Source: a virus. From it: a DNA stretch of 25,761 nucleotides. The notes beneath the pieces were generated by a model, which worked only from the letters and a program-made list of their open reading frames with translations, did not search any database and was not told the origin of the DNA. Positions within the stretch are counted from its first letter, which is position 1, and the number at the start of each line of letters is the position of its first letter. The stretch is from positions 1-25,761 of IMG/VR virus record IMGVR_UViG_3300006793_004609. The stretch is one strand, 5' to 3'. The translations under genes and the position numbers were made by a program. Shown one piece after another: positions 1,465 to 25,761 of this stretch.

Positions 1465-1475
1465 AGGAGTTGAAT

Positions 1476-1853
1476 ATGATCACACTTACTGATGCCGCAA
1501 AAACACAATTAGACAAATTATGTACAGATAACAACGTATACGCTGTTACTTTAGGCATGAAAGGTGGCGGTTGTGCAGGTTTTGAATACGATTGGGACAC
1601 TGCTACAGAACGTTCAGATCTCGAAGATGACGCATTAATTGTTGAAGCTGGTAATGGAAACCTAGCAGTTGAAACAATGAGTTTGTTATATCTTGCAGGT
1701 TCAACTATTGACTACAAAACAAGCATTATAGGATCGCAGTTTGAAATAGACAATCCTATGTCTAAAAGCAGTTGTGGCTGTGGAGTTAGTATTAACATAG
1801 ACATGGACAAACTTGCTGAACAAGAACAAATTCTTGCAACAGAATTAAAATAG
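1476..1853 (+). CDS. A-type iron-sulfur cluster carrier (IscA/SufA/HesB family)
   Basis: A 125-residue protein with the complete signature of A-type Fe-S carriers. The conserved first cysteine C33 sits in GGGCAGF, and the C-terminal pair C100/C102 in SSCGCGVS, with the usual GSQFEIDNP stretch before it. These proteins bind an Fe or [2Fe-2S]/[4Fe-4S] cluster through the three cysteines and pass it to apo-targets. The start is ATG 1476, six bases after AAAGGAG, rather than the in-frame TTG at 1470. The C-terminal tail (MDKLAEQEQILATELK) extends some 15 residues beyond the usual end. The gene has its own late promoter and sits directly before the giant structural gene. HesB/IscA-like genes are known from marine myoviruses. 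SufB in the same genome suggests a connected role. Whether it is closest to IscA, SufA or ErpA cannot be told here. Confidence 0.92.
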   Translation: MITLTDAAKTQLDKLCTDNNVYAVTLGMKGGGCAGFEYDWDTATERSDLEDDALIVEAGNGNLAVETMSLLYLAGSTIDYKTSIIGSQFEIDNPMSKSSCGCGVSINIDMDKLAEQEQILATELK

Positions 1854-10800: not shown

Positions 10801-13800
10801 ACTTACCAGAGAAAACACTTATTGGTCGTGCTGATATTGACTTTGATGGCGAACAAGAAGGTGCAGGCGAAAGTGGTATTACTAGAGCTATACCATTTAG
10901 TTTAGTAGTTGACGAAGGTGGGGGTCTACAAGATAAAGACTTTAACGACAGTGTACTAACAAAAGTTTCAGGTACAATTATTGTTACTGCTGGAGAACTT
11001 ACTTTACCAAACGGTACTAATATTACACAGGTAGGTAACACAGGTGCTACAGGTACTGTACAAGGTGCAGTGAATACTGAAAACGAAATGGTGCTTGTAG
11101 ATACAGCAGGAACATTTAATACCACAGGGCAACTACAAATTGTAAGTGGCAGTGCATTAGGTGTACAAAGTATTCCAACAGCAGTTATTAATTCACAAAA
11201 TTTACTAGGCTCAGCACTTGTTAAAATACGTGACGGAGTTTATGGATCTAGTATAATTAGTAAAACAGGTTCAGACGATAGTATAGTTAGAACACTTAAA
11301 AATGGTGACACAATTTCAGGTGTAGACAATACACTTAACTTAGGTGGTTGGATTAACCCTAGAGGTTTGTTAGTAGATAGTCGCAGAGTATTAGATACAC
11401 AAAGTGATACACTTTCCATATACACTCCAAACGATCATTTAAGTATACAAATTGAAGGTACTGCACCATCATCAGCCAATCCACTTTCAGATAAGAGTAC
11501 AGTTAGCATACCAAATGCTTCATTGCAAATTGGTTCAACAACTGTTCTTAAAGATGCTATTAACTATGGCGGATTTGCAGGTAACTTCCAACAGAACACT
11601 GAAGGTCCTACGCAATCAGATAGTGAACCATACTTAGTTACACCGTGGGTTTACACAAACTACATTCAAGCAATAGGTGAACTTTCAAGTGAAGGTACTG
11701 GTATATCAATTGGTGCAGGTGGTAGACATACTGGAGCAAAAGAAATTGGTTTAGTAGTTGCTGGTTACACTGATGCACTTAAAGTAAAAGAAACAGAAAT
11801 TTTACTAGGTACTAACGAAGTAACTCGTGTTAAAATTCTAAACGGTTCAACTAACGTATATAACTCATTTAATATTCTAGACGGAACAGATGTTAAATTT
11901 AGTGTAGCTGGTAATACAGGTAATACTAGTATTGTTGGTACATTAAGTGTTGATGAGGCTGTTACAGCAAACGGTGGCATTACAATTGACGACAGTGTGT
12001 TTGATGCTAATAAAATTAGTAGAACTAACGGCGACTTTGAAATTGAAACTGTTACAGTTGCTCCAGGCACAGGTGGTGACATTATACTTAACCCAGCTGG
12101 TAAGAATGTTATATTCAAAGAAGGCACTTCTGAAAGATTAAACTTTGATACTACTGTAGATGCTCAAGAGCTTACAACACAGGGTGCGTTTACTATTGAT
12201 GTTAACGGAACAGAAAAAGCCTTTACTGTTGAAGCAACAGGTAACATTGTATTAGATGCAGAATTAGATATTGAACTTAATGCAAATGGTGGTGACGTTG
12301 TAATTAAAGATGACACAGCTGATATATTTAAGTTTGCTAATACTGCAAATGGTTTAGATCTTGAATATGCAGAACAAGATAAAGTATTACGTATACGTGG
12401 TAACGATGACGGTACTATGTTCAACGCATTAACTTTTGATATGGCCAATGACGGTGATGCTCAATTTAGTAACAATGTTACAATTGACAATAATTTGACT
12501 GTTACTGGTACAGTTAACTTTAATGGCAATATTAACTTAGGTGATGCAGTTACAGATACTATTACAACAACTGCTATTGTTACTGATGATGTATTAGAAC
12601 TTAGACTTGACGATAACGATGCGGCAGGATTTAATTTAAAATTCCAAAAAACAACTGACAATATTGCAGGTGGTGATGACTTAGGTGTTATTACTTTCCA
12701 AAGTAATGGTGCAGTAGCGTCTACATTAGATCAAATAAAATCAACTATTACTGCAAATGCTACTGAAGTAGCTAACACCGCCGAGAGAAGTAATATTGTG
12801 TTTGCTACAGCAAGTGGCGTAAGTACAACTACTAATAGACTTGTAATTAGTGATACAATAACATCTAGTGCTAACATAGTAGCAAATAATACAGAGACTC
12901 TTGGTACAAGTGGTACTCCTTGGAGTAAAGCATATGTTACTAATAACTATGGTACACATCACGGTGATATCAAAGATGCTAGTGGTAATTTAATTGTTGA
13001 TGTAGGCACAGCACAATCTGGATCAGATCCGGCGGCTACTGTATTCTATGGTAAATTTAATGGACCATTAACAGGTGGTGTTGATACTGCAGGTGTTGCA
13101 GATACACTTCAGTCGTCACAGGAAGATACTGCAACAGATGCATTTGTTTATCCACTATGGGTAGGAGATAACCTAGCGTATGCATCTAGAAACGGCCAGG
13201 ATGCATTTACTACTGCTAACTTTAAAATGAATCCAACTAGTGGTAACTTAACAATAAGTGGGCAACTTAGCGCAGATACAATTAACATTGGCGCCAGCAA
13301 TTTAAGTACTATTGGATTATTTACAGCAGACATTTACGCAAGTGACGGAACAAATAAAATACTTGATGCAGGAACTGATGGAAGTAATGCTACATTTAAA
13401 GGTGCTGTTACAGGTACTGTTAGTTCATTAAGCAATCATGATACTGCTGACTTAACAGAAGGAACTAACCTTTACTACACAGACACTAGAGTTAGCACTT
13501 ATCTTACTAATAATAACTATGCTACTACAACTGATGTATCAAATGCAGTATCAAATGGTGCGTCAGCAAATGTAGCAGTTAGTAATTCTAATAACAGTAG
13601 TGCTAGTGACTTTTTCATTACATTTACAAATGACGCTGGTACGTCACAAGCAATAAGCATTGATAAAGATGCTAATTCTGGTTTAAAATACACACCTAGT
13701 TCGTCAACACTAACAGCATCAAACTTTGCTGGTAATGCTTCAACAGCTAATTTTGCTGACTTGGCAGAGAAATATGTTGGTGATCAAGCATACGAGCCAG

Positions 13801-14920: not shown

Positions 14921-17878
14921 ATGGCTCTGTGGACACTAGCAAATAACATTACTCTTCGAGAAGTAGAAGAAGGTCAGACACTTCGCCCAGCTAAAACGGG
15001 TGAAAATAGGTCGGCGGCCTTGTTGCCTATTGATTTAGGTGCAATAACTGATAGTACTATTAGTATTATAAGCGGAAGTTTACCCCCAGGACTTAGAATC
15101 AAAGAAGGAACACTTCAAGGAACACCTTTAGAAGTAGCACGAGAAACAGATTTTAAATTTGTTTTACGAGCAAGTAAAGATGGCAACATCGAAGACCGAA
15201 CATATAATGTTAGCGTTAAAGGTGCCGATCAACCTATATGGGGAACTACAGCAGGTTCACTTCCAGTTGGAAACAATGATACATACTACATACTTGATAG
15301 TGCGCCAATTGATTTTCAATTAATTGCAACTGACACAGATACCGAAGCAGGCGAAACACTAGAATACTTTATTGCTAGTGGCGATGGCGAATTACCACCG
15401 GGCATACAACTTACTAGAGATGGTAGAATTGTTGGCGTTGTAGATCCTGTACTAGCATTAGACAAAGCCGCACAACAAGGATTTTATGATGATAGTCCGT
15501 ATGGTGCATTTCCTTTTGATTTTGGTACAAGACCTGCAAATGGTTATGACAGTTTTTATTATGATATTGAATTTTATGATAAGAGTGTTGCTACTAAGTC
15601 ACCTAAAAAATTAAATAGAAACTATCAATTCCGTGTAAGTGTAAGTGACGGTGACACAATACAAAAAAGATTATTTAGAATATATGTTGTAGGAGATGAT
15701 TTCCTACGTTCAGACAACACTATTATGCAATCGGGTAACACATTATTTGGTGCTGATGCTACTTTTGTAAGAACGCCAATATGGCTTACACCTGCAGACT
15801 TAGGTTATCGTAGAGCTGATAATTATGTAACATTATATCTTGATACAATTGATGCAAGTAATACAATAGGCTTTATTACATATGCATTAAAAGACACAAA
15901 CGATGACGGTAGTGTAAGTTCTATACCACCAGGTATGACACTAGACACAGGCACTGGAGAACTAGCAGGCACAGTTCCTTATCAGCCTAATGTTACCAAA
16001 GAGTATAAGTTTACAGTTACAGCAACACGTTATGTTGGACCTGCAACAAATACAGAAGATTTAAGTTTCGAAGTATACGAAACAACATACCCACAGAATA
16101 GAACTCCTGCAACAAAAATGAAAGCAGGCAAAAATTATGAAATTGTAAGTGTATATGGTACTACAGATTATACAACTGTTGGTGCGGCAAATAATGACAT
16201 TGGAACAGTATTTACATCGTCAGGTCCTACTAGCGGAACAAACGAAAGTTTAGTTAAACAAGCGGGCGGTGCATACACACTAAGAATTAAAAAGAGTCCT
16301 TATCTTGCTAAACTAAAAGGTAAAACTTTTAACCTTAAAGGTACATTATATACAATAAGCGAAATTAATAACGCAAGTTATTTGTTTGATGTTTTAATTT
16401 TTACAAAAGCATTAGATGCACGTTTAAATGTAGACGAACAATTTACAACTACTGTAACAATACCTGGTAAGGAAGATACAAACTCTTCACCAAAAGACAA
16501 AACATTTACAGTTAAGTTATTAGGTAAAGTAGATAGTACACTTAATTGGATAAGTCCTAAAGCATTAGGAACTATCAATGCTAACCTAACAAGTACATTT
16601 AGTGTAAATGCTACTACAAGTGTTGAAGGCGCAAACGTAAGATATATAAAAGAAGAAGGCAGATTGCCACCAGGATTATCTTTAGCACTTGACGGAGAAA
16701 TATTTGGTAAAGTACAACAGTTTGGTGAAAATAGATATAGAAGTTTTTGGAAAACAGGCAGAGCATATGTTAGTGATGACATTGTTAAAGTAGGTACAAC
16801 AAAATATAAATGTTTAATTGCACACACTAGTCAAGCAGAGTTTATAAGTGATACTGCAAAATGGGAAGTTTATCCAGGATTTGCAGTAAGTGGTTTAACT
16901 ACGTTTGATTCAAACGATATGTTGTTTGACGGTAACACTACAAGCATTGATAAAACTTACACATTTAAAACAAGAGCTGAAGATCAATATGGATTTAGTG
17001 CTATTAGAAGAAACTTCACTATTGTAATTAACGATCCTAATGATTTAGTATTCAGTAATATTGTAGTCAAAGCATTTCTTGGATCACAACAAAAGTTCTT
17101 GTATAATAGTTTTATTAGTGATCCTATTGTATTTGATCCAGCAAAAATTTACAGACCAAACGATACAGAATTTGGAACACAAAATGAATTAAAAATGTTA
17201 ATGTATGCAGGGATTGAAACTGTTGACATGAATAAATTTGTTGCGGCGGCTGCCAAAAATCATAAACGCAAACAATTTAAATTTGGTAGTATTAAAAAAG
17301 CAGTAGCATATGAACTTGGTACTAAAGTGCCAGTATACGAAGTTGTGTACATTGATGTAATAGATCCACAAGATCATAGTTCAGGCAATGTTCAATCAAC
17401 ATTAAAAATAAAAAGTAAAGTTGATAGAACAATAAACAGTACACAATACGAAACACTTGATAACACAAGTGACGTAGTTGACAATTGGCCGGATAGACGA
17501 AGACCAATAAGTAATACACTTAAGATTGATAGTGATGCAATTAAAGTAGATGAAGACAAACAACAACAAAAATATATTAGTAACATAACTAATATGAGAA
17601 ATAGAATTGCCGCTGTAGGTGAAACAGATAATAACTTTTTACCATTATGGATGCGTACACCACAAGAAAATAATATCGAAGCTCTTGGATATACGCCAGC
17701 AGTAGTATTAACTTACTGTAAACCAGGCACAGCAGATGAAATTTTATTAAATATAAAAAACAGTGCGTTTGATTTCAAATCAATTAACTTTGAAGTTGAT
17801 AGATATATTATAGATAGCACTAGAGGAAACAGCAACGAACAGTATATACTATTCGCAAATTACGACTTTAACGTCTAA
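14921..17878 (+). CDS. Large virion structural protein with He_PIG-like Ig repeats, 985 aa
   Basis: Begins MALWTLANNITLREVEEGQT. Four copies of the LPPGLxLxxxGxLxGT motif, typical of He_PIG (cadherin-like/putative Ig) domains, are visible at residues about 52-69 (SLPPGLRIKEGTLQGTP), 154-173 (ELPPGIQLTRDGRIVGV), 334-353 (SIPPGMTLDTGTGELAGTV) and 581-598 (RLPPGLSLALDGEIFGKV). The C-terminal third (from about residue 700) is different: more charged, with helical stretches (FVAAAAKNHKRKQFKFGSI) and possibly an attachment or assembly domain. Such Ig-like strings often decorate phage tails and bind cell-surface carbohydrate. The role is inferred from the domains and from its place between other structural genes behind a late promoter. 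Only the first part of the 985 residues can be assigned to domains. Confidence 0.85.
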   Translation: MALWTLANNITLREVEEGQTLRPAKTGENRSAALLPIDLGAITDSTISIISGSLPPGLRIKEGTLQGTPLEVARETDFKFVLRASKDGNIEDRTYNVSVKGADQPIWGTTAGSLPVGNNDTYYILDSAPIDFQLIATDTDTEAGETLEYFIASGDGELPPGIQLTRDGRIVGVVDPVLALDKAAQQGFYDDSPYGAFPFDFGTRPANGYDSFYYDIEFYDKSVATKSPKKLNRNYQFRVSVSDGDTIQKRLFRIYVVGDDFLRSDNTIMQSGNTLFGADATFVRTPIWLTPADLGYRRADNYVTLYLDTIDASNTIGFITYALKDTNDDGSVSSIPPGMTLDTGTGELAGTVPYQPNVTKEYKFTVTATRYVGPATNTEDLSFEVYETTYPQNRTPATKMKAGKNYEIVSVYGTTDYTTVGAANNDIGTVFTSSGPTSGTNESLVKQAGGAYTLRIKKSPYLAKLKGKTFNLKGTLYTISEINNASYLFDVLIFTKALDARLNVDEQFTTTVTIPGKEDTNSSPKDKTFTVKLLGKVDSTLNWISPKALGTINANLTSTFSVNATTSVEGANVRYIKEEGRLPPGLSLALDGEIFGKVQQFGENRYRSFWKTGRAYVSDDIVKVGTTKYKCLIAHTSQAEFISDTAKWEVYPGFAVSGLTTFDSNDMLFDGNTTSIDKTYTFKTRAEDQYGFSAIRRNFTIVINDPNDLVFSNIVVKAFLGSQQKFLYNSFISDPIVFDPAKIYRPNDTEFGTQNELKMLMYAGIETVDMNKFVAAAAKNHKRKQFKFGSIKKAVAYELGTKVPVYEVVYIDVIDPQDHSSGNVQSTLKIKSKVDRTINSTQYETLDNTSDVVDNWPDRRRPISNTLKIDSDAIKVDEDKQQQKYISNITNMRNRIAAVGETDNNFLPLWMRTPQENNIEALGYTPAVVLTYCKPGTADEILLNIKNSAFDFKSINFEVDRYIIDSTRGNSNEQYILFANYDFNV

Positions 17879-17882
17879 GTGC

Positions 17883-17890
17883 GATAAATA
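17883..17890 (+). promoter_or_regulatory. T4-type late promoter box
   Basis: GATAAATA lies 22 bases before ATG 17913, with CAGGAGA (17897-17903) between them. Same spacing as the box at 14891. Confidence 0.6.
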
Positions 17891-17912
17891 CTGCAACAGG
17901 AGAATATAGATT

Positions 17913-18497
17913 ATGTCAGACGTACCAGCAAACAATCCAATTAACACAGCAGATTTGGATATAGAATTTCCAGTACCAGGGCAAGACAACGATAGCCAAG
18001 GATTTAGAGATAACTTTACTGTTATTAATTCAAACAATACTTCTATCAAAACAAGATTAGAAGATATAGAAACTAATATTGTTAGAAAAGATGAGGACGT
18101 AACATATGTTCAGTCGTCTACTAATACAGTTACTATTGAAAATCCAAACGTAAAAGCACTTACTAAAACTAAAAAGAATATAACTACTGGAACTGAAATT
18201 GATTTTGCAGATGGCGACTATCATACTATTTCATTATCAAGTAGTAACACAACTGCAAGTACTGCTACATTTGATATCACAGGTTATGCATATGCTGGAC
18301 CATACCAAAAAGTTATATTAGAAGTTTCAAGTGATGCATCTTATACAATAGCATGGAACTCTAGTGTTACAATTAAATTTAGCGAATCAAGTTTTTGGTC
18401 AACTCCAGTAACAAATAGTTCTAAAGTACACATAATTGAACTTTGGACAACTAACGGTAGCGTATACTTTGCTGACTACATAGGCGCATATGCATAA
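17913..18497 (+). CDS. Virion structural protein, 194 aa
   Basis: The N-terminus (NPINTADLDIEFPVPGQDND, then SQGFRDNFTVINSNNTSIKT) is a variant of the GDxxRxxFxxVNxNF module of the giant and 240-residue proteins, here DSQGFRDNFTVINSN, so all three look related at their N-termini. A short helical stretch follows (TRLEDIETNIVRKDEDV). The C-terminal 110 residues are beta-rich and aromatic (YTIAWNSSVTIKFSESSFW, VHIIELWTTNGSVYFADYIG), resembling the tip domains of phage tail proteins. It is the last gene of the structural run, with its own late box. Its stop overlaps the next gene's start (TAATG), so the small downstream protein is probably translationally coupled. Precise virion location unknown. 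Confidence 0.8.
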   Translation: MSDVPANNPINTADLDIEFPVPGQDNDSQGFRDNFTVINSNNTSIKTRLEDIETNIVRKDEDVTYVQSSTNTVTIENPNVKALTKTKKNITTGTEIDFADGDYHTISLSSSNTTASTATFDITGYAYAGPYQKVILEVSSDASYTIAWNSSVTIKFSESSFWSTPVTNSSKVHIIELWTTNGSVYFADYIGAYA

Positions 18498-18733
18498 TGC
18501 ACCCGTTGTTTGAAAATTCTGACAATCTCTCTACTAGTGAAATAGAAGACAAAATCTTACTTTTAAACAGGCGATATTACCAAACTCGCAATCCTCAAGT
18601 ACAAGAACAAATATCAATGCTACTAGATACGTATAAACTAGAACTAGAAACACGTATGGTAGCAGAGAAAAAACGTCAACAAGATCAGCAAAATGGCGAA
18701 TCAGGACTTGACAATTTAATTAATATCAGTTAA
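18497..18733 (+). CDS. Small coiled-coil protein, 78 aa, function unknown
   Basis: ATG 18497-18499 overlaps the preceding stop codon. The protein is hydrophilic and mostly helical: TSEIEDKILLLNRRYYQTRN, then QVQEQISMLLDTYKLELETR, followed by a basic/glutamine-rich segment (MVAEKKRQQDQQNG) and GLDNLINIS. It has the look of a short two-helix coiled coil. Proteins beginning MHPLF with this layout occur in T4-like marine phages next to structural genes, as far as I recall, but I cannot assign a function. It shares a transcript with the structural protein before it. A candidate -35 box (TTGACA, 18708-18713) lies inside its last codons. Confidence 0.75.
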   Translation: MHPLFENSDNLSTSEIEDKILLLNRRYYQTRNPQVQEQISMLLDTYKLELETRMVAEKKRQQDQQNGESGLDNLINIS

Positions 18734-18741
18734 ACTAACTG
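18708..18741 (+). promoter_or_regulatory. Candidate sigma70-type promoter with inverted repeat at its -10 box
   Basis: TTGACA (18708-18713) is a perfect -35 box. Seventeen bases on lies TAAACT (18731-18736), a 4/6 match to TATAAT. A perfect inverted repeat CAGTTA-AAC-TAACTG (18727-18741) covers the -10. Transcription would start at or near the ATG at 18743, which has no Shine-Dalgarno, so a nearly leaderless message is possible. The -10 match is weak, so this is tentative. Confidence 0.3.
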
Positions 18742-18742
18742 T

Positions 18743-19273
18743 ATGCTTATGAAAACAGACTCTCTCGGTATCCCGCGATTTACAAATAAAGACTTGGTAG
18801 AAATGATCTATACAGGTAATGTAGACAAATGCCATGTGGTATTATGTGAGCAATCTGACGATATAGACAAGTTTAATGAGGCTATGGAAGAACAAGGCTT
18901 TGATAAACTACAAAAGTATATTCCATTAGATGTAGACGAAAAAACGTTTGACGGTGTATGTCAAAGTGAATGGTTTATGCCTGATGAATACAAAGACATT
19001 AATGTATATGAATATGTACTAGGCAAAGCAAAAACACCTTGCGAACAACATGTACAAGATCGTATATGGGAAGAAATGGAAGCATACAAAGAACGTGATA
19101 TGCACAACCTATTACGATATATGATCTATCTTGTAGACTTCATGCGTGAGAATAACATTGTATGGGGTGTAGGTAGAGGTAGCTCTGTAGCATCATATGT
19201 GCTATACTTAATAGGTATACACAAAATAGACTCAATCCAATATGACCTGGATTGGCGAGAGTTCCTTAGATAA
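18743..19273 (+). CDS. Fragment related to bacterial DNA polymerase III alpha subunit, lacking the catalytic aspartates
   Basis: A 176-residue protein. Residues about 120-176 (LLRYMIYLVDFMRENNIVWG, then VGRGSSVASYVLYLIGIHKI and DSIQYDLDWREFLR) match the stretch of bacterial PolIII-alpha that reads FLIVMEFI...[35 protein letters not shown]. In the full enzyme this is followed at once by PDxDxD, which carries the catalytic metal ligands; here the frame ends exactly before it (TAA 19271-19273). It therefore cannot polymerise by itself. The first 110 residues show no recognised motif but are rich in D/E. It may bind nucleotide or DNA, or act on the host polymerase; this is inference. No Shine-Dalgarno precedes ATG 18743 (or the second ATG at 18749). 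The stop codon overlaps a late promoter box for the next gene. Confidence 0.75.
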   Translation: MLMKTDSLGIPRFTNKDLVEMIYTGNVDKCHVVLCEQSDDIDKFNEAMEEQGFDKLQKYIPLDVDEKTFDGVCQSEWFMPDEYKDINVYEYVLGKAKTPCEQHVQDRIWEEMEAYKERDMHNLLRYMIYLVDFMRENNIVWGVGRGSSVASYVLYLIGIHKIDSIQYDLDWREFLR

Positions 19274-19276
19274 ATA
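19269..19276 (+). promoter_or_regulatory. T4-type late promoter box overlapping a stop codon
   Basis: GATAAATA contains the TAA stop of the PolIII-alpha-like gene and lies 27 bases before ATG 19304, with TTAGGAGA (19291-19298) before that start. Its sequence matches the 14891 and 17883 boxes exactly. Confidence 0.55.
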
Positions 19277-19303
19277 CGTATATAACCCCATTAGGAGAAT
19301 AAA

Positions 19304-19720
19304 ATGGCACTAAAAGGTAACAGCAGAAAAACTTATAAAACTATGCGTGGTAAAATGGTCGATATGGATCTTTTACAAGCACGTAATGAATTAACACCAG
19401 CAGTAGGTAATGCAAGAGTAAATGCACGTGGTGATGAAATTGGCCCAGGTGGCAAAATCATTAAGAAACGTGAAGAGCTTATGCGTGACTACTACGAAAC
19501 AAACAATGCTATAGCACACGAAGAAATGCCTGGTAGATCAACAGAATCTGTACAAGCAGACGAAGTTGTAGAAGAAGCACCTAAAGCAAAAAAGCAAACT
19601 AGAGCGCAAGCAAAAGTCGAGAAGGCTCCGGAACCTACTGCAAAAGAAGCAGAAGAATTTGGTGATGATCAAGAATGGATCGAAGACGACAACGGAAATT
19701 TTGTACCAAAAGGTGAATAG
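19304..19720 (+). CDS. Hypothetical phage protein with acidic disordered C-terminus, 138 aa
   Basis: Begins MALKGNSRKTYKTMRGKMVD. The first 65 residues look like an ordered, conserved-looking core, including LTPAVGNARVNARGDEIGPG followed by GKIIKKREELMRDYYETNN. The remaining half is low-complexity, alternating acidic and lysine-rich (ADEVVEEAPKAKKQTRAQAK, EAEEFGDDQEWIEDDNG) and likely disordered. Behind a late promoter box it is probably made late and could be a virion-associated or assembly protein. The N-terminal layout resembles a small conserved protein of marine T4-like phages, but I cannot name a function. Its TAG stop is followed immediately by the ATG of the oxygenase gene, implying a shared transcript. 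Confidence 0.75.
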   Translation: MALKGNSRKTYKTMRGKMVDMDLLQARNELTPAVGNARVNARGDEIGPGGKIIKKREELMRDYYETNNAIAHEEMPGRSTESVQADEVVEEAPKAKKQTRAQAKVEKAPEPTAKEAEEFGDDQEWIEDDNGNFVPKGE

Positions 19721-20305
19721 ATGCTACCCAATTTTATTGAAGAGTATGAACTCAACGATAAATCAATTTGCAATGCATTATTAGGTCTTTATCAAGAAGG
19801 CCATAAAAGAGGTTTGACGAATGACGGTGTTGTTGGAGATGCAGACACCGTTGATCATACTACAAAAAAGAGTACAGACTTTCCATTGCAAGAAGCAGGA
19901 AAAATTGGCCCAGCAGAAATGTTTAGGTGGCCAGACTATTTTGCAGAACTTTCTTCTTTTATAGATCACTACTTAGAGAAATATAAAATTCTAAAGTATG
20001 CTGGTAAACTTGAAATGTCACAGTTACCGCAAATACAATGTTATGAACCTTCTGAAGGTTTTTATAAATGGCATTGTGACGGAACACAACTTTCAAGTGA
20101 TAGAGCTCTAGTGTATATGACTTACCTAAATGATGTGCCAGATGGGGGTACTGAGTTTATGCACCAAGAGATAACTACAAAAGCAGTAAAAGGCAAAACA
20201 GTTATTTGGCCTGCAGGACTTACACATATCCATAGAGGACAAATAGCAAAAGAAGATACAAAATATATTATCACCGGATGGCTCTGGTGGGACAACACAA
20301 AATAA
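19721..20305 (+). CDS. 2-oxoglutarate/Fe(II)-dependent oxygenase (prolyl 4-hydroxylase-like)
   Basis: A 194-residue protein with the double-stranded beta-helix signature of 2OG-Fe(II) oxygenases. The metal motif is H118-x-D120 in YKWHCDG, the distal histidine is H169 or H171 in THIHRG, and the 2OG-contacting basic residue is probably K181 or R172, followed by YIITGWLW. The surrounding sequences (ALVYMTYLNDVPDGGTEF and PAGLTHIHRG) match the P4H-type group found in many marine T4-like phages. Such enzymes use Fe(II), O2 and 2-oxoglutarate to hydroxylate a protein, nucleic acid or small molecule; the substrate is unknown. The start ATG 19721 abuts the previous stop, so it is probably translated together with that gene. 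Needs iron, as do FdxA, SufB and the IscA-like protein of this window. Confidence 0.9.
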   Translation: MLPNFIEEYELNDKSICNALLGLYQEGHKRGLTNDGVVGDADTVDHTTKKSTDFPLQEAGKIGPAEMFRWPDYFAELSSFIDHYLEKYKILKYAGKLEMSQLPQIQCYEPSEGFYKWHCDGTQLSSDRALVYMTYLNDVPDGGTEFMHQEITTKAVKGKTVIWPAGLTHIHRGQIAKEDTKYIITGWLWWDNTK

Positions 20306-20315
20306 GAGGAAAACA

Positions 20316-20723
20316 ATGCCAACTAATGTAAACGCAATAAAAGGTAATTTAAGAGCAATCGGTAAGCGAGTACTTGTAACTGATATGCACTTTGGTGAAC
20401 AAGTTACTAGAGGCGGAATTATTATCGCAGGTGACGACGGTAAACAGCGTGGCATATATCCACGTTGGGCTAGAGTTTATTCTAAAGGTCCTGAAAACAA
20501 TGACCCGTATGAAAAGAATCAATGGGTACTAATTGAACACGGACGCTGGACACGTGGTATGAAAGTTGATACTGACGATGAAGGCGAAATTACAATTCAT
20601 ATGGTAGACGATGAATGTATATTAGCAATGGCAGACGAAAAGCCAAATGATCACCAAATAGGCGATGAAACAGCCAATGGTGGTTCAATAGATATCAACC
20701 CACAAGATTTCATAAACGCATAG
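20316..20723 (+). CDS. GroES/gp31-like co-chaperonin
   Basis: A 135-residue protein. The opening (IRAIGKRVLV-like: NLRAIGKRVLVTDM) matches the start of GroES folds. A mobile-loop region with GGIIIAGDDGKQRGIYPRWA (residues about 33-52) corresponds to the GGIVL loop that contacts GroEL. The later part (GMKVDTDDEGEITIHMVDDE, then CILAM) matches the end of the GroES barrel. The C-terminal 27 residues beyond this are an extra acidic tail. Phage GroES-like proteins (T4 gp31) replace or supplement host GroES so that the large capsid protein can fold in GroEL. That function is inferred from the family. AGAGGAAAAC precedes ATG 20316. The closest relative (gp31 or bacterial GroES) needs a search. Confidence 0.85.
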   Translation: MPTNVNAIKGNLRAIGKRVLVTDMHFGEQVTRGGIIIAGDDGKQRGIYPRWARVYSKGPENNDPYEKNQWVLIEHGRWTRGMKVDTDDEGEITIHMVDDECILAMADEKPNDHQIGDETANGGSIDINPQDFINA

Positions 20724-20731
20724 GAAAATAA

Positions 20732-21085
20732 ATGACAGACGTATTTGCAGATATTAATAAATTCGCAACGGCATGCGATCAAGCGCCAAGCGAAGCAAAC
20801 TATAAAATGTATCTTGATCTAATTCGAGAAGAAGTAGGCGAACTAGAAGATGCTATTGCAGACAACGACAGAATTGAACAGTTAGATGCATTAATTGATA
20901 TCTTAGTTGTTACAATAGGTGCAGTTCGAGCAGGCGGAATGAATGGCGAAGGTGCATGGAAAGAAGTAATGGACACAAACTTTGCTAAAATTGATCCGGA
21001 TACAGGTAAAGTTATCAAACGTGATGACGGTAAAGTGCTAAAACCAGAAGGTTGGAAAGCACCCGAACTTACCAATTTTATCTAA
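20732..21085 (+). CDS. mazG: MazG-like nucleotide pyrophosphohydrolase
   Basis: A 117-residue protein with the all-alpha NTP pyrophosphatase signature: EEVGE at residues 33-37 and E49xxD52...D56 in EQLDALID, which give the metal-binding EExxE...ExxD pattern of MazG, dUTPase-like and HisE-type enzymes. The length fits a single-domain MazG. It would hydrolyse (d)NTPs or related nucleotides to the monophosphate plus PPi; marine phages carry such genes and they are thought to influence nucleotide pools or (p)ppGpp signalling, which is debated. The end (KVIKRDDGKVLKPEGWKAPE) is typical of MazG-like phage proteins. Start ATG 20732 lies 9 bases after the previous gene, with AGGAAAA as a weak ribosome site. 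Confidence 0.85.
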   Translation: MTDVFADINKFATACDQAPSEANYKMYLDLIREEVGELEDAIADNDRIEQLDALIDILVVTIGAVRAGGMNGEGAWKEVMDTNFAKIDPDTGKVIKRDDGKVLKPEGWKAPELTNFI

Positions 21086-21101
21086 AAAATTAAAATAATA
21101 C

Positions 21102-21130
21102 TTGACTCCTAACAGTTTATGCGTTATAAT
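21102..21130 (+). promoter_or_regulatory. Strong sigma70-type promoter
   Basis: TTGACT (21102-21107) and TATAAT (21125-21130) are separated by exactly 17 bases; the -10 is perfect and the -35 is five of six. Transcription would start near 21137, leaving only about 17 bases before ATG 21154. It follows the MazG-like gene directly and would drive the run of replication, nucleotide and Fe-S genes to its right. Early phage genes using host sigma70 are expected in a T4-like phage. Confidence 0.8.
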
Positions 21131-21146
21131 ATGTATAAACGTTAGG
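21108..21146. promoter_or_regulatory. Inverted repeat flanking the -10 box, possible operator
   Basis: CCTAACAGTTTAT (21108-21120) and ATAAACGTTAGG (21135-21146) are reverse complements of each other apart from one extra base in the left arm. The loop between them contains the -10 box TATAAT. The right arm reaches into the Shine-Dalgarno (TTAGGAG, 21142-21148). The left arm lies upstream of the predicted start of transcription, so an RNA hairpin from this promoter is unlikely; a DNA-binding operator is the simpler reading. Confidence 0.55.
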
Positions 21147-21153
21147 AGATTCT

Positions 21154-21312
21154 ATGAAAATATCATCGCAAACAAGCGGTATTGGTACTACAGGTGCAAC
21201 AGGCGTAGCACTATTAGTACTACATTTAAGCGGATACATTACAGGGTGGGCTTGGCCTATACTATATGTAATGTTAATTATTTCAGGCATTGGACAAGAG
21301 AATAGGAAATAA
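21154..21312 (+). CDS. Small membrane protein, 52 aa
   Basis: ATG 21154 is five bases after TTAGGAG and directly downstream of the promoter at 21102. The protein starts MKISSQTSGIGTTGATG, a glycine/threonine-rich stretch. A first hydrophobic part (VALLVLHLSGYI) and then a second (AWPILYVMLIISGIG) are followed by a polar end QENRK, giving two short membrane helices around a turn. The pattern suggests a phage membrane protein of unknown role, perhaps in membrane takeover or holin-like, but nothing specific supports the latter. It is the first gene of the transcript from the sigma70-type promoter, and DexA-like starts two bases after its stop. A reading frame of similar length in another phase overlaps it but is less plausible. 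Confidence 0.7.
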   Translation: MKISSQTSGIGTTGATGVALLVLHLSGYITGWAWPILYVMLIISGIGQENRK

Positions 21313-21314
21313 GT

Positions 21315-21851
21315 ATGGCTATTCATGCAACAATCGACTTAGAGACCATTGACACAAAGCCAGGTGCAACTGTACTAAGTCTCGGTGGTGTTAAGTTTGA
21401 TCCAAAAACTAACGGCGAACCTCACTCAGAATTCTATATTAAAATTTGTATTGAAGACCAAGATAGATTAGGTCGTACCGAAAGTGACGATACAATAGAG
21501 TGGTGGGGCAAACAAAAACCGGAGATACGTGACGAAGCGTTCGACCAAACAGGAGCAGTTACAGTAGATGACGCTTTAAAGCAAATTAGTAAGTTTAGTG
21601 TTGGTGTTGATACGTTTTGGGGGCAAGGATACGGTTTTGACTATACCATTATGGAAGACATGTTCCGCCAAGGCGGAAGACCTATTCCGTGGAACTTCTG
21701 GCAAATAAGAGATTCTAGAACACTTTTTGCGTGTTGTGAGAACGATCCACGTAAAGCAATACAAAACGATTTGCATAACGCACTAGCGGATGCTTATTAT
21801 CAATCAAAAGCAATCCAGGTTGCGTACAAGGAGTTAGGAGTACAGAGGTGA
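21315..21851 (+). CDS. dexA: DexA-like DEDDh 3'-5' exonuclease
   Basis: A 178-residue protein with the exonuclease motifs: Exo I DLE (D8 and E10) in ATIDLETID, Exo II with D109 in YGFDYTI, and Exo III H154...D159 in LHNALADA (DEDDh type). The segment TIEWWGKQKPE and the FWQIRDSRTL stretch correspond to TIEWW and FWNQRDIRT of phage T4 exonuclease A (DexA), which degrades DNA from 3' ends. T4 DexA is longer (about 227 residues), so this is a shorter relative. It lies in the replication-linked gene run and may act in DNA degradation or in trimming during replication. RNase activity of the related RNase T-like families is an alternative. The start ATG 21315 lies two bases after the previous stop. 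Confidence 0.85.
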   Translation: MAIHATIDLETIDTKPGATVLSLGGVKFDPKTNGEPHSEFYIKICIEDQDRLGRTESDDTIEWWGKQKPEIRDEAFDQTGAVTVDDALKQISKFSVGVDTFWGQGYGFDYTIMEDMFRQGGRPIPWNFWQIRDSRTLFACCENDPRKAIQNDLHNALADAYYQSKAIQVAYKELGVQR

Positions 21852-22027
21852 AACGTGTAGCAAAAGAGGAGACCGCAGACGATAAACTCGTCCAAGAATA
21901 TTTAAAAAACGGCGGAAAGATAACCTACTACGAAGCAGGACAACGTTCTGAAGAAATTGATTACAAAGGCGGATTTTACGCAAGACGTAAAAAGAAGAAA
22001 GAAGCCAAAGAGCGAGGAGACGAATAA
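21848..22027 (+). CDS. Small basic protein, 59 aa, GTG start
   Basis: GTG 21848-21850 overlaps the TGA of the DexA-like gene (stop 21849-21851), and AAGGAG (21829-21834) is near it. The product MKRVAKEETADDKLVQEYL has a charged helical start, then GGKITYYEAGQRSEEI and DYKGGFYARRKKKKEAKERG, which ends in a cluster of eight basic residues. Short proteins of this layout (NGGKxT...GGFYGRRK) are, as I recall, recurrent in marine T4-like phages next to replication genes. No function is known to me; nucleic-acid binding through the basic tail is inferred. The next gene's ribosome site (GAGGAG) is inside this gene's end. The assigned start depends on GTG use, which is plausible for this overlapping position. 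Confidence 0.65.
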   Translation: MKRVAKEETADDKLVQEYLKNGGKITYYEAGQRSEEIDYKGGFYARRKKKKEAKERGDE

Positions 22028-22028
22028 T

Positions 22029-22193
22029 TTGGTTAGATGGTATGATTGGCCAGCGGCAATAGTATACGCTTATCTTATTATGTATTTCTTCTTTACAATA
22101 CCTATCTTTGGTGCTATAATAGCATACTTAATATATGAGTATTTGTGGGGACAGGTTTACTGTCAATTTAGATTACAACAGGAAAACACATGA
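22029..22193 (+). CDS. Two-pass membrane protein, 54 aa, TTG start
   Basis: No ATG is suitable; the best start is TTG 22029, nine bases after GAGGAG (22014-22019) and one base after the previous stop. The product (LVRWYDWPAAIVYAYLIMYF) shows two hydrophobic segments: IVYAYLIMYFFFTIPIF and GAIIAYLIYEYLW. A polar C-terminus ([13 protein letters not shown]) follows. That predicts a small inner-membrane hairpin with an aromatic-rich first helix. The function is unknown. Its stop overlaps the ATG of the clamp-loader gene (ATGA), so the two are likely translated together. A longer reading that begins upstream inside the preceding gene is possible but would lack a good start signal. Confidence 0.6.
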   Translation: MVRWYDWPAAIVYAYLIMYFFFTIPIFGAIIAYLIYEYLWGQVYCQFRLQQENT

Positions 22194-23104
22194 AAGAATT
22201 ATGGGTAGAAAAGTATCGTCCGAAAACAGTAGATGGTTACGTATTTCGTGATGACGCACAACGCAGTCAAGTAAAAAATTGGATTAAAGAAAAAACTATT
22301 CCGCATTTGCTGTTTAGTGGTAACGCAGGTATTGGTAAGACAACACTTGCTAAACTATTGTTTAATGAATTAGATTTGAATGACTTAGACATTTTAGAAA
22401 TAAACGCATCGCGAACAAACTCAGTAGATGATGTACGTGATAAAATTGTAAACTTTGTACAGATGATCCCATTTGGGGACTTTAAGGTTGTATTACTAGA
22501 TGAGGCAGACTATCTTAGCCCAAACGCTCAAGCGGCGTTGCGTGGTGTTATGGAAGAGTATCATACTACTGCTCGTTTCATTCTTACTTGTAACTATCCA
22601 AATCGTGTTATTCCCGCTTTGCATAGTAGGTGTCAAGGTTTTCACATTGCTAAAATTGACCAAACAGAGTTCACAGCTAGAGTTGCTGAAATACTTATTA
22701 CCGAAGGTGTTACTCCTGATTTGGATACGCTCGATACCTATGTAAAAGCAACATACCCTGACTTACGTAAGTGCATAAATATGGTACAGATGAACGTGCA
22801 AGACGGATTACTACTTGCTCCTAATGAAGGAGATACAGGTGAAAGTGATTGGAAACTTGACATGGTTGAATTGTTTAAGGCAGGCAAGATTCAAGAAGCA
22901 CGTAAATTGTTATGTGGCGCTATTCGTCCTGAAGAGATGGAAGAAGTTTACCGATGGCTATATGATAACATATCGCTGTTCGGAGATGATACCCAGCAGG
23001 ACCAAGCAGTGCTAATTATTAAACAAGGACTGGTGGATCATACACTTGTTGTAGATCCGGAGATAAATTTAGCCGCAGTGCTAATTAAACTAGCGAGGTT
23101 GTAG
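22190..23104 (+). CDS. 44: Clamp loader ATPase subunit (T4 gp44-like)
   Basis: A 304-residue AAA+ protein. Features in order: the N-terminal [12 protein letters not shown], characteristic of the RFC/gp44 small subunits; Walker A GNAGIGKT at residues 44-51; Walker B VVLLDEAD at 100-107; sensor 1 with ILTCN (131-135); the arginine-finger motif SRC at 146-148. The collar domain follows. It belongs to the T4 clamp loader (gp44 with gp62), which places the sliding clamp gp45 at primer ends using ATP. The sensor/SRC motif is intact, so it should be functional. The start ATG overlaps the previous stop, and its own stop overlaps the GTG of FdxA (TAGTG). gp45 and gp62 are not seen in the window. Confidence 0.95.
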
Positions 23105-23454
23105 TGACATACTTAGTAACAGACAACTGCATTAAATGCAAACATACAGACTGTGTAGCAGTTTGTCCAGTAGACTGCTTCTATGAGGCAGAAAACTTTC
23201 TCGCAATCAATCCTGAAGAATGTATTGACTGTGGAGTTTGTGTTCCAGAATGTCCAGTTAATGCTATCTATGAGGATACTGAATTGCGTAGTGAAGAACG
23301 AGAGAAGTGGGATGATATAAACCGTAAAGTTGTTGAGTCAGGTGCTCCGGTACTTGCTGAACAAATTGCGCCGTTGGATGACCACGCCGAATGGGATGGA
23401 TATCCTAACAAGTACGAAGAGTTTGGTATTATACCTCTTAAGGAAATAAAATGA
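23104..23454 (+). CDS. fdxA: 7Fe ferredoxin ([3Fe-4S][4Fe-4S], FdxA family)
   Basis: A 116-residue protein that matches FdxA along most of its length. The nine cysteines of Azotobacter ferredoxin I (C8, C11, C16, C20, C24, C39, C42, C45, C49 without Met) are present at 9, 12, 17, 21, 25, 40, 43, 46 and 50: [3Fe-4S] ligands 9, 17, 50; [4Fe-4S] ligands 21, 40, 43, 46. The text VTDNCIKCK...CPVDCFYE and [13 protein letters not shown] is typical. FdxA is a low-potential electron carrier. The start is GTG 23104, overlapping the clamp loader stop by one base. The C-terminal part ([20 protein letters not shown]) is shorter and more diverged than in bacteria. A bacterial-type 7Fe ferredoxin is unusual in a phage replication operon; possible partners are host reductases, an oxygenase or an unknown enzyme. 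Confidence 0.95.
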
Positions 23455-23642
23455 CAACACGGAATGATATAACCGGGGATGAGCTAAGAAGCAAGACTCC
23501 TACAGAAAAGTATCGAGACAACTACGATAAAATCTTTGGCAACAAAGACCAAAAGATAAAACAACAAGATTTAACAGAGCTTAATGGTGACGGTAATAGA
23601 GACCGTGGCCGCAATGGAGAGGATTTAAGCAACAATGGCTAA
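23451..23642 (+). CDS. Small hydrophilic hypothetical protein, 63 aa
   Basis: ATG 23451 overlaps the TGA of fdxA (ATGA) with AAGGAA just upstream. The product starts [20 protein letters not shown] and is almost entirely charged or polar, with no hydrophobic core ([20 protein letters not shown], then [13 protein letters not shown]). It is likely disordered. No family is recognised. Its last eight bases overlap the start of thyX, whose ribosome site (GGAGAGGAT) lies inside this gene, so it may act mainly as a translational link between fdxA and thyX. The frame is short and could be a chance product, though the overlapping start/stop on both sides supports it being real. Confidence 0.6.
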
Positions 23643-24309
23643 ACTAGTAAGTTATACACAAGCAACACCTGAATTTGAAGCTGAAGGCTTAACAGACCTT
23701 CAAGAGCTTGTAGCATTTTGTGCAAAGGTATCAAACCCTGCGGCACAAATTAATACAGAAACAAGTGAACGTTTGATTAAGTATTTGATCAAACATCAGC
23801 ATTGGTCACCGTTAGAAATGGTTAATGCTGTTATTGAAATTGAAACTACAAGAGACATTGCACATCAAATTGTGCGACACAGAAGTTTTGCGTTTCAAGA
23901 ATTCAGTCAACGCTATGCAGAGCCAGGTGAAATGGGCGAAGTGTTTATTACAAGTGAACCACGTATGCAAGATACTAAGAATAGACAAAACTCTATTGAT
24001 GTAGACTTGTCAGAAGATGGCATGGCTGAACTAGTAGTCAAGTGGGAAGAATTACAACAAGATGTAATTTATACATGCGGTCGTGCATACGATTGGGCAA
24101 TCGATAATGGTATTGCTAAAGAAGTAGCACGTAAAGTATTGCCAGAAGGTCTTACTAAAACACGTTTGTATATGAACGGTACGTTGCGTAGTTGGATACA
24201 CTACATTGATTTACGTAGTGCTAACGGTACACAAAAAGAACATATGGATGTTGCAAAAGCATGTGCAACAGTAATATCAGAAGTATTTCCAATAGCAAAA
24301 AGTTTATGA
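23635..24309 (+). CDS. thyX: Flavin-dependent thymidylate synthase ThyX
   Basis: A 224-residue protein with the ThyX signature RHRx7S at residues 81-91 (RHRSFAFQEFSQRY, 81-94) that binds FAD and dUMP. The later segment (ARKVLPEGLTKTRLYMNGTL) matches the family's substrate-binding end, and SWIHYIDLR is typical. ThyX makes dTMP from dUMP using methylenetetrahydrofolate, FAD and NAD(P)H, bypassing ThyA and dihydrofolate reductase. It is common in marine T4-like phages. The dCMP deaminase three genes on supplies dUMP, so both act in one route to dTMP for phage DNA. Start ATG 23635 follows GGAGAGG (23617-23623). The stop overlaps the next gene's start (ATGA). Confidence 0.95.
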   Translation: MAKLVSYTQATPEFEAEGLTDLQELVAFCAKVSNPAAQINTETSERLIKYLIKHQHWSPLEMVNAVIEIETTRDIAHQIVRHRSFAFQEFSQRYAEPGEMGEVFITSEPRMQDTKNRQNSIDVDLSEDGMAELVVKWEELQQDVIYTCGRAYDWAIDNGIAKEVARKVLPEGLTKTRLYMNGTLRSWIHYIDLRSANGTQKEHMDVAKACATVISEVFPIAKSL

Positions 24310-24524
24310 TGGGAGCAAACTGGCAAGCTGATCCGCAGAGAACTGTTGAAGAAAAGTTTGCTTGGTGGCCTACACGTAGTGGATCACATAAACTTATATG
24401 GTTAAAGCCATACTATGTTCAACACACTTACTATGATGATTTAGGTAAACCACCTATTAAAGGACGAAGTTGGGAGTACATCTATACTAAGAATGAACAC
24501 TTAGTAGAGCAGTTAAAAAGATGA
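24306..24524 (+). CDS. Small conserved-looking hypothetical protein, 72 aa
   Basis: The start is ATG 24306, overlapping the thyX stop; a second ATG at 24309 would give a product one residue shorter. An upstream in-frame start at 24261 would lie inside thyX and is not preferred. The protein (MMGANWQADPQRTVEEKFAW) is rich in aromatic residues and prolines: WWPTRSGSHKLIWLKPYYVQ, then HTYYDDLGKPPIKGRSWEYI. It ends with [10 protein letters not shown]. No membrane segment or known motif is apparent. Proteins of this kind beside thyX are, from memory, found in other T4-like marine phages, but I do not know a function. The tight overlaps on both sides show that it belongs to the nucleotide operon. 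Confidence 0.7.
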   Translation: MMGANWQADPQRTVEEKFAWWPTRSGSHKLIWLKPYYVQHTYYDDLGKPPIKGRSWEYIYTKNEHLVEQLKR

Positions 24525-24958
24525 AACAAAAATTTATAGATGCATACATGGATGTGGCCGAAAGGTTTGCAAAGTTAAGTCATGCCAAACGTTTACAAGT
24601 AGGTGCTATTGTTGTCAAAGACGATCGCATCATAAGTATAGGTTATAATGGTATGCCTACAGGATGGGATAACACTTGTGAAACTTTAGAGTTTACTGCT
24701 CCTGGACAGATTGCTCCTAGTACTAAATCTAAGCCTGAGGTATTACATGCAGAATCTAATGCTATTGCTAAACTTGCTAAAAGTGGCGAAAGCGGATTAG
24801 ATGCAACTATTTTTGTTACACATGCACCTTGTATCGAATGTGCTAAGTTAATATACCAGAGTGGTATAAGTACAGTATATTATAAAGATGCATATCGTAG
24901 TAGCGATGGTGTAGAATTTTTAAAGAAATCTAAAGTAAAGGTAATACAAAATGCTTGA
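24521..24958 (+). CDS. dCMP deaminase
   Basis: A 145-residue protein with the zinc motif of cytidine/deoxycytidylate deaminases: H76-A-E78 in VLHAESNAI and P103-C104-xx-C107 in [10 protein letters not shown], where H76, C104 and C107 hold zinc and E78 is the proton shuttle. The substrate-binding stretch [13 protein letters not shown] is typical of dCMP deaminase (phage T4 gpcd). It converts dCMP to dUMP, the substrate of ThyX upstream. The ATG overlaps the previous stop by four bases. The end of the gene overlaps sufB by eight bases (ATGCTTGA). The insert between the substrate region and HAE ([17 protein letters not shown]) is normal for this family. Confidence 0.92.
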
Positions 24959-25761
24959 AGAACAAGAAATTTCGCAGGAATATACTGCTGGTTGGTCTTC
25001 TAACGTAGAAACAGAATATCTTGGTAAGGGACTTTCTGAGAAAACTATCAGACTAATAAGCGACAAAAACAATGAACCCGAATGGTTACTTGATTGGAGG
25101 CTTAAAGCATTTAACGCTTTGAAAACTATGAAAGAACCCGATTGGGCAGAAGTAAATTATCCTAAAATTAATTATGATGAATTGTACTATCATAGTCGTC
25201 CTAAAAAATTATTAAACAGTTTAGACGAAGTTGATCCAGAAATTTTAGCAGACTTTGCAAAACTAGGTATTCCTCTAGACGAACAAGCAAAACTAGCAGG
25301 TGTTGCTGTTGATGCAGTATACGACAGTGTAAGTGTTACAACTACTTTTAAAGATATACTATTAGAAGACGGTGTAATATTTTGTAGTATTAGTGAAGCA
25401 GTAAAAGATTATCCTGACTTAGTTAAAAAGTATTTAGGCAGTGTTGTTCCACAAAAGGACAATTACTTTAGTTGTCTTAACAGTGCAGTGTTTTCAGATG
25501 GTAGTTTTGTGTACATTCCAAAAGGCACAACGTGTCCAATGGAACTAAGCACATACTTTAGAATCAATGCTGAACACACAGGACAGTTTGAACGCACACT
25601 TATTATTGCAGATGACGACAGTTATGTAAGTTACTTAGAAGGTTGTACTGCACCAATGCGTGATGAAAATCAATTACATGCCGCAGTAGTAGAACTTGTT
25701 ACTTTAGAAAATGCTGAAATAAAATATAGCACAGTACAAAATTGGTACCCGGGCGATGAAA
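24951..25761 (+). CDS. sufB: Fe-S cluster assembly protein SufB (5' part, cut by window edge)
   Basis: The first 270 residues of a SufB, out of about 480 expected, run to the window edge. The match to bacterial SufB is continuous: [113 protein letters not shown] and [12 protein letters not shown]. SufB with SufC and SufD forms the SufBC2D complex, the scaffold for cluster assembly under iron or oxidative stress. The segment [20 protein letters not shown] replaces the cysteine-containing insert of E. coli SufB and resembles alphaproteobacterial SufB. The start ATG 24951 overlaps the dCMP deaminase stop. sufC and sufD, if present, lie outside the window. A full-length scaffold gene in a phage is unusual. 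Confidence 0.93.

Follow-up and report, generated by a model that had tools for sequence, protein, structure and literature searches.

A sufB gene at the right edge of a viral contig and a putative phage SUF operon with a miniature SufD in its relatives

Assembly of Fe-S clusters is a core cellular pathway that involves many proteins, and the cofactor is needed by respiration, nucleotide synthesis and radical-SAM chemistry. The DNA analysed here (the window, 25,761 nucleotides) ends inside a sufB gene lying among phage genes, which raises the question whether this phage carries an isolated SufB or a larger machinery. Judged from gene content, the window's phage lineage probably encodes a complete, self-sufficient SUF assembly line, present as an accessory cassette between the genes for dCMP deaminase and PhoH. 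Since the sulfur donor, scaffold, ATPase and carriers are all encoded, the set is more than a lone SufB. If this holds true, a phage so equipped would be independent of its host for the Fe-S cofactor.

The window and the operon of its near relatives

The N-terminal part of sufB occupies positions 24951–25761 of the plus strand, where an open reading frame of 270 codons (24951–25760) is still open at the right edge of the record; the gene is truncated by the record end and encodes 474 amino acids in four near relatives. Two Pfam domains, SUFBD_core (E 4.4e-15) and SufBD_N (E 2.5e-13), are found above their curated cut-offs, and the reading of 24951–25760 as the N-terminal half of SufB in the initial annotation is thereby confirmed, the window's own copy being visible to codon 270. 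The frame starts with ATG and shares bases 24951–24958 with the dCMP deaminase gene (24521–24958, plus strand; PF00383 E 5.6e-23), the left border of the suf cassette, so that the eight-base overlap described earlier is also present. As the record consists of the window only, the C-terminus of its own sufB cannot be read, and the last 46 bases have no exact match among viral contigs. Over the 270 codons, dN/dS between the window and L005, one of the four near relatives, is 0.059, and sufB is under purifying selection.

The placement of sufB as a phage gene inside a replication and nucleotide-metabolism operon was likewise borne out. On the same strand lie a clamp-loader AAA+ ATPase (22190–23104; Pfam AAA / DNA_pol3_delta2), which is a replication neighbour marking the phage backbone, a ferredoxin-like protein with two 4Fe-4S-type motifs (23104–23454; Fer4 Pfam families), which is likely a client or an electron donor, and ThyX (23635–24309; PF02511 E 8.8e-42), a neighbour of the cassette in the operon that hosts it. 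At the other end of the window, an A-type Fe-S carrier of the SufA/ErpA/IscA superfamily is encoded at 1470–1853 (plus strand; PF01521 E 1e-14; TIGR00049 84.2 bits, cut-off 58.8), which has the three cysteines of the family. The window also holds a single frame of 4085 codons (1875–14132), the product of which looks like a giant tail-fibre or structural protein, and a free-standing piece of DNA polymerase III alpha of 176 aa (18743–19273; PF07733). Locus L305 has a comparable fragment, 159 aa long, close to the clamp loader. Rfam and tRNA scans of the window gave no match.

A scan of IMG/VR with the window SufB identified 35 contigs that hold a relative, and in four IMG/VR contigs SufB is 96% identical to that of the window across all 270 residues. 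IMGVR_UViG_3300017770_003026 is colinear with the entire window at 93–96% DNA identity and extends past its right edge, and all four near relatives are 94% identical in DNA to window positions 14924–25761, the part compared. Three of the four show 3–7 differences from L005 across the 4330 bases of the suf region, and their IMG dataset numbers differ. Given their near-identity in the suf region, they represent a single population that was met four times and is distinct from that of the window.

Of the two options offered in the initial annotation, a swap of the phage SufB into the host SufBC2D complex or a larger phage suf set just past the window, the four contigs show the second, with an intact overlapping operon. 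The gene order is sufB (474 aa), a Grx4-type CGFS glutaredoxin (102 aa), sufC (218 aa), a SufD-like gene (151 aa, mini-SufD hereafter), sufS (387 aa) and sufE (129 aa). Successive genes from sufB to sufE overlap by 4, 14, 17, 11 and 26 bases, with one terminal stop per frame. After sufE follows phoH on the opposite strand, assigned by its position and by similarity among the relatives, and beyond it lie genes for virion structural proteins, an endolysin and a DnaJ-like protein. Scanning L005 for promoters and terminators showed no excess over shuffled sequences (35 versus 30.0 and 5 versus 4.2, respectively). Upstream in record G001, the closest relative of the window, a QueD/PTPS-like gene is present (L046 4532–4981).

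Pfam supports every Suf assignment in L005, with SufC recognised as an ABC ATPase only. SufB exceeds the NCBIfam SufB equivalog cut-offs (818.6 versus 717 and 616.1 versus 346.4 bits), and the glutaredoxin exceeds that for Grx4. The best NCBIfam match of SufC is TIGR01978 sufC (163 bits, cut-off 212.8), that of mini-SufD is TIGR01981 (E 1.9e-13, 50 bits versus an equivalog cut-off of 222), and SufS and SufE, which pass their Pfam cut-offs, score 215 versus 475 bits and 48 versus 160 bits, respectively, in NCBIfam; because these NCBIfam scores fall under the cut-offs, SufC, mini-SufD, SufS and SufE are regarded as divergent. SufS keeps its Lys and Cys catalytic motifs, and the 'GC' motif of SufE aligns with a solved SufE. 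The phage SufC, in which about 30 residues are missing at the C-terminus, has E. coli SufC as its nearest solved chain and keeps the Walker and signature motifs. Residues C405, H433 and E434 of E. coli SufB correspond to C384, H412 and E413 in L005, and the equivalent of C254 is kept too, so that the sulfur-entry cysteine (C254) and the cluster-site Cys/Glu (C405, E434) could be mapped, with roles as given in Yuda 2017 (PMC5571166). Loss of the conserved C-terminal Cys/His region, which would have spoken against a working SufB, is not seen in the relatives.

The suf genes form an accessory cassette, because near relatives join phoH to the dCMP deaminase gene without suf. In loci L224, L227 and L229 the two genes abut, which is how the site looks when no cassette is present. 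Among the best 80 of 526 phoH loci, many of which are fragments, a clamp loader is found in 69, ferredoxin in 64 and sufB in 3, nearly all the ferredoxin-bearing loci are without suf, and all three sufB-positive loci are contigs already among the SufB matches. Phage genes on both sides and the variable presence (3/80 phoH loci) agree with what is expected of an AMG cassette. In a separate check of 20 records, 16 further phoH relatives of 38–358 kb showed no SufB/D match, the four positives being mini-SufD records that were included deliberately. Locus L228 presents another arrangement, in which a lone sufS of group A type (the type of the four near relatives) with its catalytic Cys kept lies between phoH and dCMP deaminase (8728–9915, minus strand); no sufB, C, D or E match was found in the 16.7-kb locus, nor any SufB/D match in the 72-kb record around it, and sufA is located elsewhere. 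Four more of these best 80 of 526 phoH loci have weaker sufS-like matches elsewhere.

Mini-SufD

The Pfam match of mini-SufD is confined to the later portion of the SufBD core domain (PF01458 E 8.7e-11, 42.1 bits versus a cut-off of 27). An AlphaFold model generated with 20 phage SufD rows (pLDDT 89.6, pTM 0.82) aligns over all 151 residues to residues 239–397 of SufD 2zu0_B (Z 10.9) and 239–396 of 1vh4_A (Z 11.0), with rmsd of 2.6–2.7. The model also matches residues 312–471 of chain E of 5awf/5awg, which we take to be SufB (Z 12.5), and SMS chain 9h78_B (Z 10.0), while unrelated beta-solenoids reach Z of up to 8.7–8.8. Foldseek gave no match at E ≤0.001 (best 1.6e-3), and each of the 11 highest-ranking chains belongs to SufB, SufD or SMS. 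A profile made from the mini-SufD rows alone matched only SufD in the PDB (E 0.0014). Modelling with these rows alone lowered the pLDDT to 70.8, with residues 115–124 including H117 under 50, and left the order of strands and helices nearly unchanged.

In comparison to E. coli SufD, mini-SufD is reduced to the C-terminal third; residues 1–238 and the last ~26 are missing, and the equivalent of Cys358 is Ala. On the model, its N-terminal domain and the greater part of its beta-helix are gone, and what is kept is the end that faces SufB together with the beginning of the helical domain. Only P104, H117 and G136 are invariant in the 20 phage SufDs, in an alignment that includes near-copies and full-length SufDs trimmed to ~190 C-terminal residues; H117 corresponds to H360 of E. 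coli SufD, the cluster-site histidine. The phages with a short SufD (143–153 aa) also have a short SufC (217–220 aa), and given these truncations a SufB-SufC-mini-SufD complex may not form. Mini-SufD also provides a naturally minimal construct for testing what part of SufD the scaffold requires.

Close to bacterial sufB genes, 69 complete SufD-like frames span 242–488 aa, with three phage loci set aside. The mini-SufD profile matched 38 of 41 whole bacterial genomes picked from the 80 best bacterial SufB matches (of at least 590), and no frame shorter than 261 aa was found in them. Some Sphingomonadales, Pelagibacteraceae and other Alphaproteobacteria have SufDs of about 240–310 aa, which suggests that the phages extend a reduction that is also found in bacteria.

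Spread and descent

Mini-SufD is present in 11 contigs, namely the four near relatives (group A) and seven contigs of a second group (group B), of which L304 and L305 are identical across 15 kb. As far as the contigs reach, the order in group B is sufB, sufC, mini-sufD, sufS, sufE, a DUF59/SufT-like gene and sufA, with grx between sufB and sufC in L304–L307, and the operon adjoins the clamp loader and phoH. One record of this group has 235,561 bases and carries gp23, the T4-type capsid gene; the designation as T4-like is based on the replication genes together with the gp23 that some of the relatives have. Across phage records the SufD frames fall into sizes of 384–435, 287, 195–201 and 144–154 aa. 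Records of 243, 328 and 340 kb have gp23, terminase, SufB, SufC and SufD matches, and in the 243-kb record sufB lies ~95 kb away from sufC/sufD. In four of the 35 records (G010, G013, G014 and G016) SufB is without a SufC or SufD match.

GenBank phage records yielded 20 matches, of which MW495066.1, 'Microcystis phage MaAM05', is the best. Its locus (L037, 259798–273876) contains pxpA, panB, panC and a full bacterial-type sufBCDS-iscU set, Pfam detected neither gp23 nor terminase in the record, and its SufB falls among bacterial ones; the record is probably a bacterial contig filed as phage. The SufB of the faecal record MT835665 groups with Bacteroidaceae.

Trees were quick and unrooted, with a limited bacterial sample. 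In the SufB tree (115 rows, excluding near-copies L001, L003 and L004 and the window fragment), the window's lineage lies within 28 phage rows behind a branch with support of 99, apart from 80 bacterial rows. Phage rows are likewise grouped for SufC (25 rows, 99) and SufS (26 rows, 96), in two trees from which roughly half of the bacterial rows were dropped, as were rows of unusual length and seven phage sequences that are near-copies or fragments. The two mini-SufD groups join at 99 in SufB, at 100 in SufC and at 100 in SufS, there together with L228. The alphaproteobacterial origin that had been proposed for the window's SufB lineage is therefore unsupported, as the phage rows stand apart from the bacteria at 99; an unsampled donor is possible, because the bacterial rows are the best 80 of at least 590 matches. 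Other phage-listed SufBs (L014, L015, L017, L031 and L032) sit among bacteria, with L032, from the 328-kb record G031, grouping with Pelagibacteraceae at 98, and in the SufS tree L011 and L013 also sit among bacteria. These placements suggest that there were several acquisitions or that some of the contigs are bacterial. In the SufC tree, L029 and L032 were flagged as long branches that meet.

Proposed working and alternatives

The near relatives combine this gene content with intact frames, catalytic residues and a phage-specific grouping of three subunits, and their mini-SufD has a predicted SufD fold. In the proposed assembly line, SufS would take sulfur from cysteine and SufE would pass it to SufB, which would build the cluster where it meets mini-SufD, with two SufC ATPases powering the opening of the complex. 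The cluster might then be handed on by the CGFS glutaredoxin, the A-type carrier and a SufT-like DUF59 protein, the last encoded in related phages. Mini-SufD may represent the minimum for scaffold chemistry, in that it retains the last SufB-facing turns of the beta-helix, including the counterpart of H360, and the initial helices of its C-terminal domain, which could dock SufC. We infer that the window's own suf copy continues as in the relatives. The phage Suf proteins would form complexes among themselves, not with host Suf, and run during infection. Possible recipients of their clusters are the ferredoxin of the phage, its radical-SAM enzymes in those phages that have them, and host Fe-S enzymes on which phage growth depends. 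The boldest form of the proposal is an autonomous, miniaturised phage Fe-S factory, in which SufD is cut down to a ~150-residue interface cap with one essential histidine and a SufC dock, and which forms a host-independent, phage-specific SUF lineage across T4-like and jumbo phages; the arguments for and against this form seem to us evenly balanced.

Several other explanations have to be considered. The phage subunits might mix with the host SUF complex and boost or redirect it, SufB swapping in for its host counterpart. In favour of this, the phage SufB is 64–68% identical to the 80 best bacterial SufBs (of at least 590) and keeps the mapped functional residues, but the operon supplies its own SufC, SufD, SufS and SufE, and the shortening of SufC and SufD together suggests a dedicated pairing; we consider mixing unlikely. 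It is more doubtful still that the cassette serves mainly for sulfur transfer (tRNA/DNA thiolation) via SufS-SufE with the scaffold genes as passengers. The lone sufS of L228 and the QueD-like gene upstream in G001 are compatible with such a role; against it stand the conserved SufB residues and SufD histidine, as well as the dN/dS of sufB, which is lower than that of the other four genes for which the window and L005 were compared.

That the operon is a decaying relic, with mini-SufD a degenerate fragment devoid of function, is suggested by the differing SufD sizes among phage records and by the retention of sufS alone in L228, yet the mini-SufDs of groups A and B are unbroken, are 46–52% identical, share 53 invariant columns in 7 sequences and occur in 11 contigs, which makes decay highly improbable. 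Least probable of all, to the point of being nearly negligible, is that the suf genes are host DNA, in chimeric contigs or transducing particles, and form no phage gene set. Some records filed as phage do look bacterial, such as MW495066.1 with panB, panC and pxpA beside sufBCDS and the four loci L031, L017, L014 and L015 placed among bacteria in the SufB tree, and gp23/terminase Pfam matches are found in 0/4 group A records, which are all fragments. A chimera with a bacterial genome, named at the outset as one possible refutation, is however contradicted by the four colinear contigs from separate datasets that agree with the window. Moreover, the sufB frame overlaps the dCMP deaminase of the phage module and phage genes lie on either side, the GC and GC3 of the suf genes are within or near the range of the neighbouring phage genes, SufB falls in a phage-only group and the 235-kb record has gp23 as well as a suf operon.

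The proposed assembly line resembles bacterial SUF (E. coli SufABCDSE; SufBC2D, PDB 5awf) in its protein set, in the family cut-off reached by SufB and in the cluster-site and sulfur-entry residues. It differs in being encoded by phages, in the size of SufD (~150 aa) and SufC (~218 aa), in the glutaredoxin within the operon and in its phage-only grouping. The reduced scaffold is reminiscent of SMS (SmsC/SmsB of methanogens), whose chain 9h78_B the mini-SufD fold matches and which is described as SufB2C2 without SufD, SufS or SufE (PMC12584684). The phage set, in contrast, has a full-length SufB, a tiny SufD and SufS/SufE, and the SmsB model scores 192.1 bits on the phage SufB against a cut-off of 650, which places it outside SMS.

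The viral Fe-S literature searched, covered in part for each source, describes isolated genes only (IscU, A-type carriers, NifU and SufE). T4-like environmental viral genomes were reported to carry an A-type carrier, IscU, Grx, PaaD and many radical-SAM genes (Nishimura 2017, PMC5332604), of which the A-type carrier, glutaredoxin and DUF59/PaaD-like genes recur here in a similarly T4-like setting; sufB and sufS have 0 occurrences in the main text of that paper. Viruses of a marine oxygen minimum zone carry sufE without sufS, plus nifU (PMC8940887), and the lone viral sufE is thought there to aid host SufS, unlike the present case in which the partners are encoded together. Further reports concern viral nifU, plus nifS on a putative transposable element (PMC7785012, which in addition refers to previous virome studies that reported ISC- and SUF-related genes), sufA (PMC10580990), iscA (PMC8226683) and a viral Fe-S biosynthesis protein (PMC7678222). 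A phage SufBCDS set was not found in the literature searched, the coverage of which excludes preprints, many journals and supplements. PHROGs contains families that resemble SufB and SufS (phrog_12033 and phrog_12787), neither of which has a named function.

A high load of radical-SAM enzymes was considered as the reason for carrying suf and is unsupported by two comparisons of records with and without suf. Records with suf (16 selected of 37) have 71 radical-SAM matches in 1.92 Mb, and gp23-related records without suf (30 records of ≥20 kb out of 80 loci; SufB/D 0/30) have 50 in 1.79 Mb, i.e. 3.7 versus 2.8 per 100 kb. A second comparison gave 18 matches in 0.42 Mb for four suf records and 75 in 1.83 Mb for 12 phoH relatives (4.3 versus 4.1 per 100 kb). 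The four group A records have zero radical-SAM matches, an absence that carries little weight because the records are all probably fragments. Two phoH-related records without a SufB/D match, G075 (179,647 bases) and G078 (275,366 bases), hold 23 and 18 radical-SAM matches, respectively.

Record G007 (141.7 kb) carries genes for CsgG, curlin-repeat, FecR-domain and CHASE2-adenylate cyclase proteins immediately upstream of its group B suf operon (L043 8033–15425), and these curli-type genes either reside on a phage contig or are a sign of a mixed contig. The same record encodes two TctC-type tricarboxylate-binding receptor proteins (L040 18759–19676 and L045 15473–16453).
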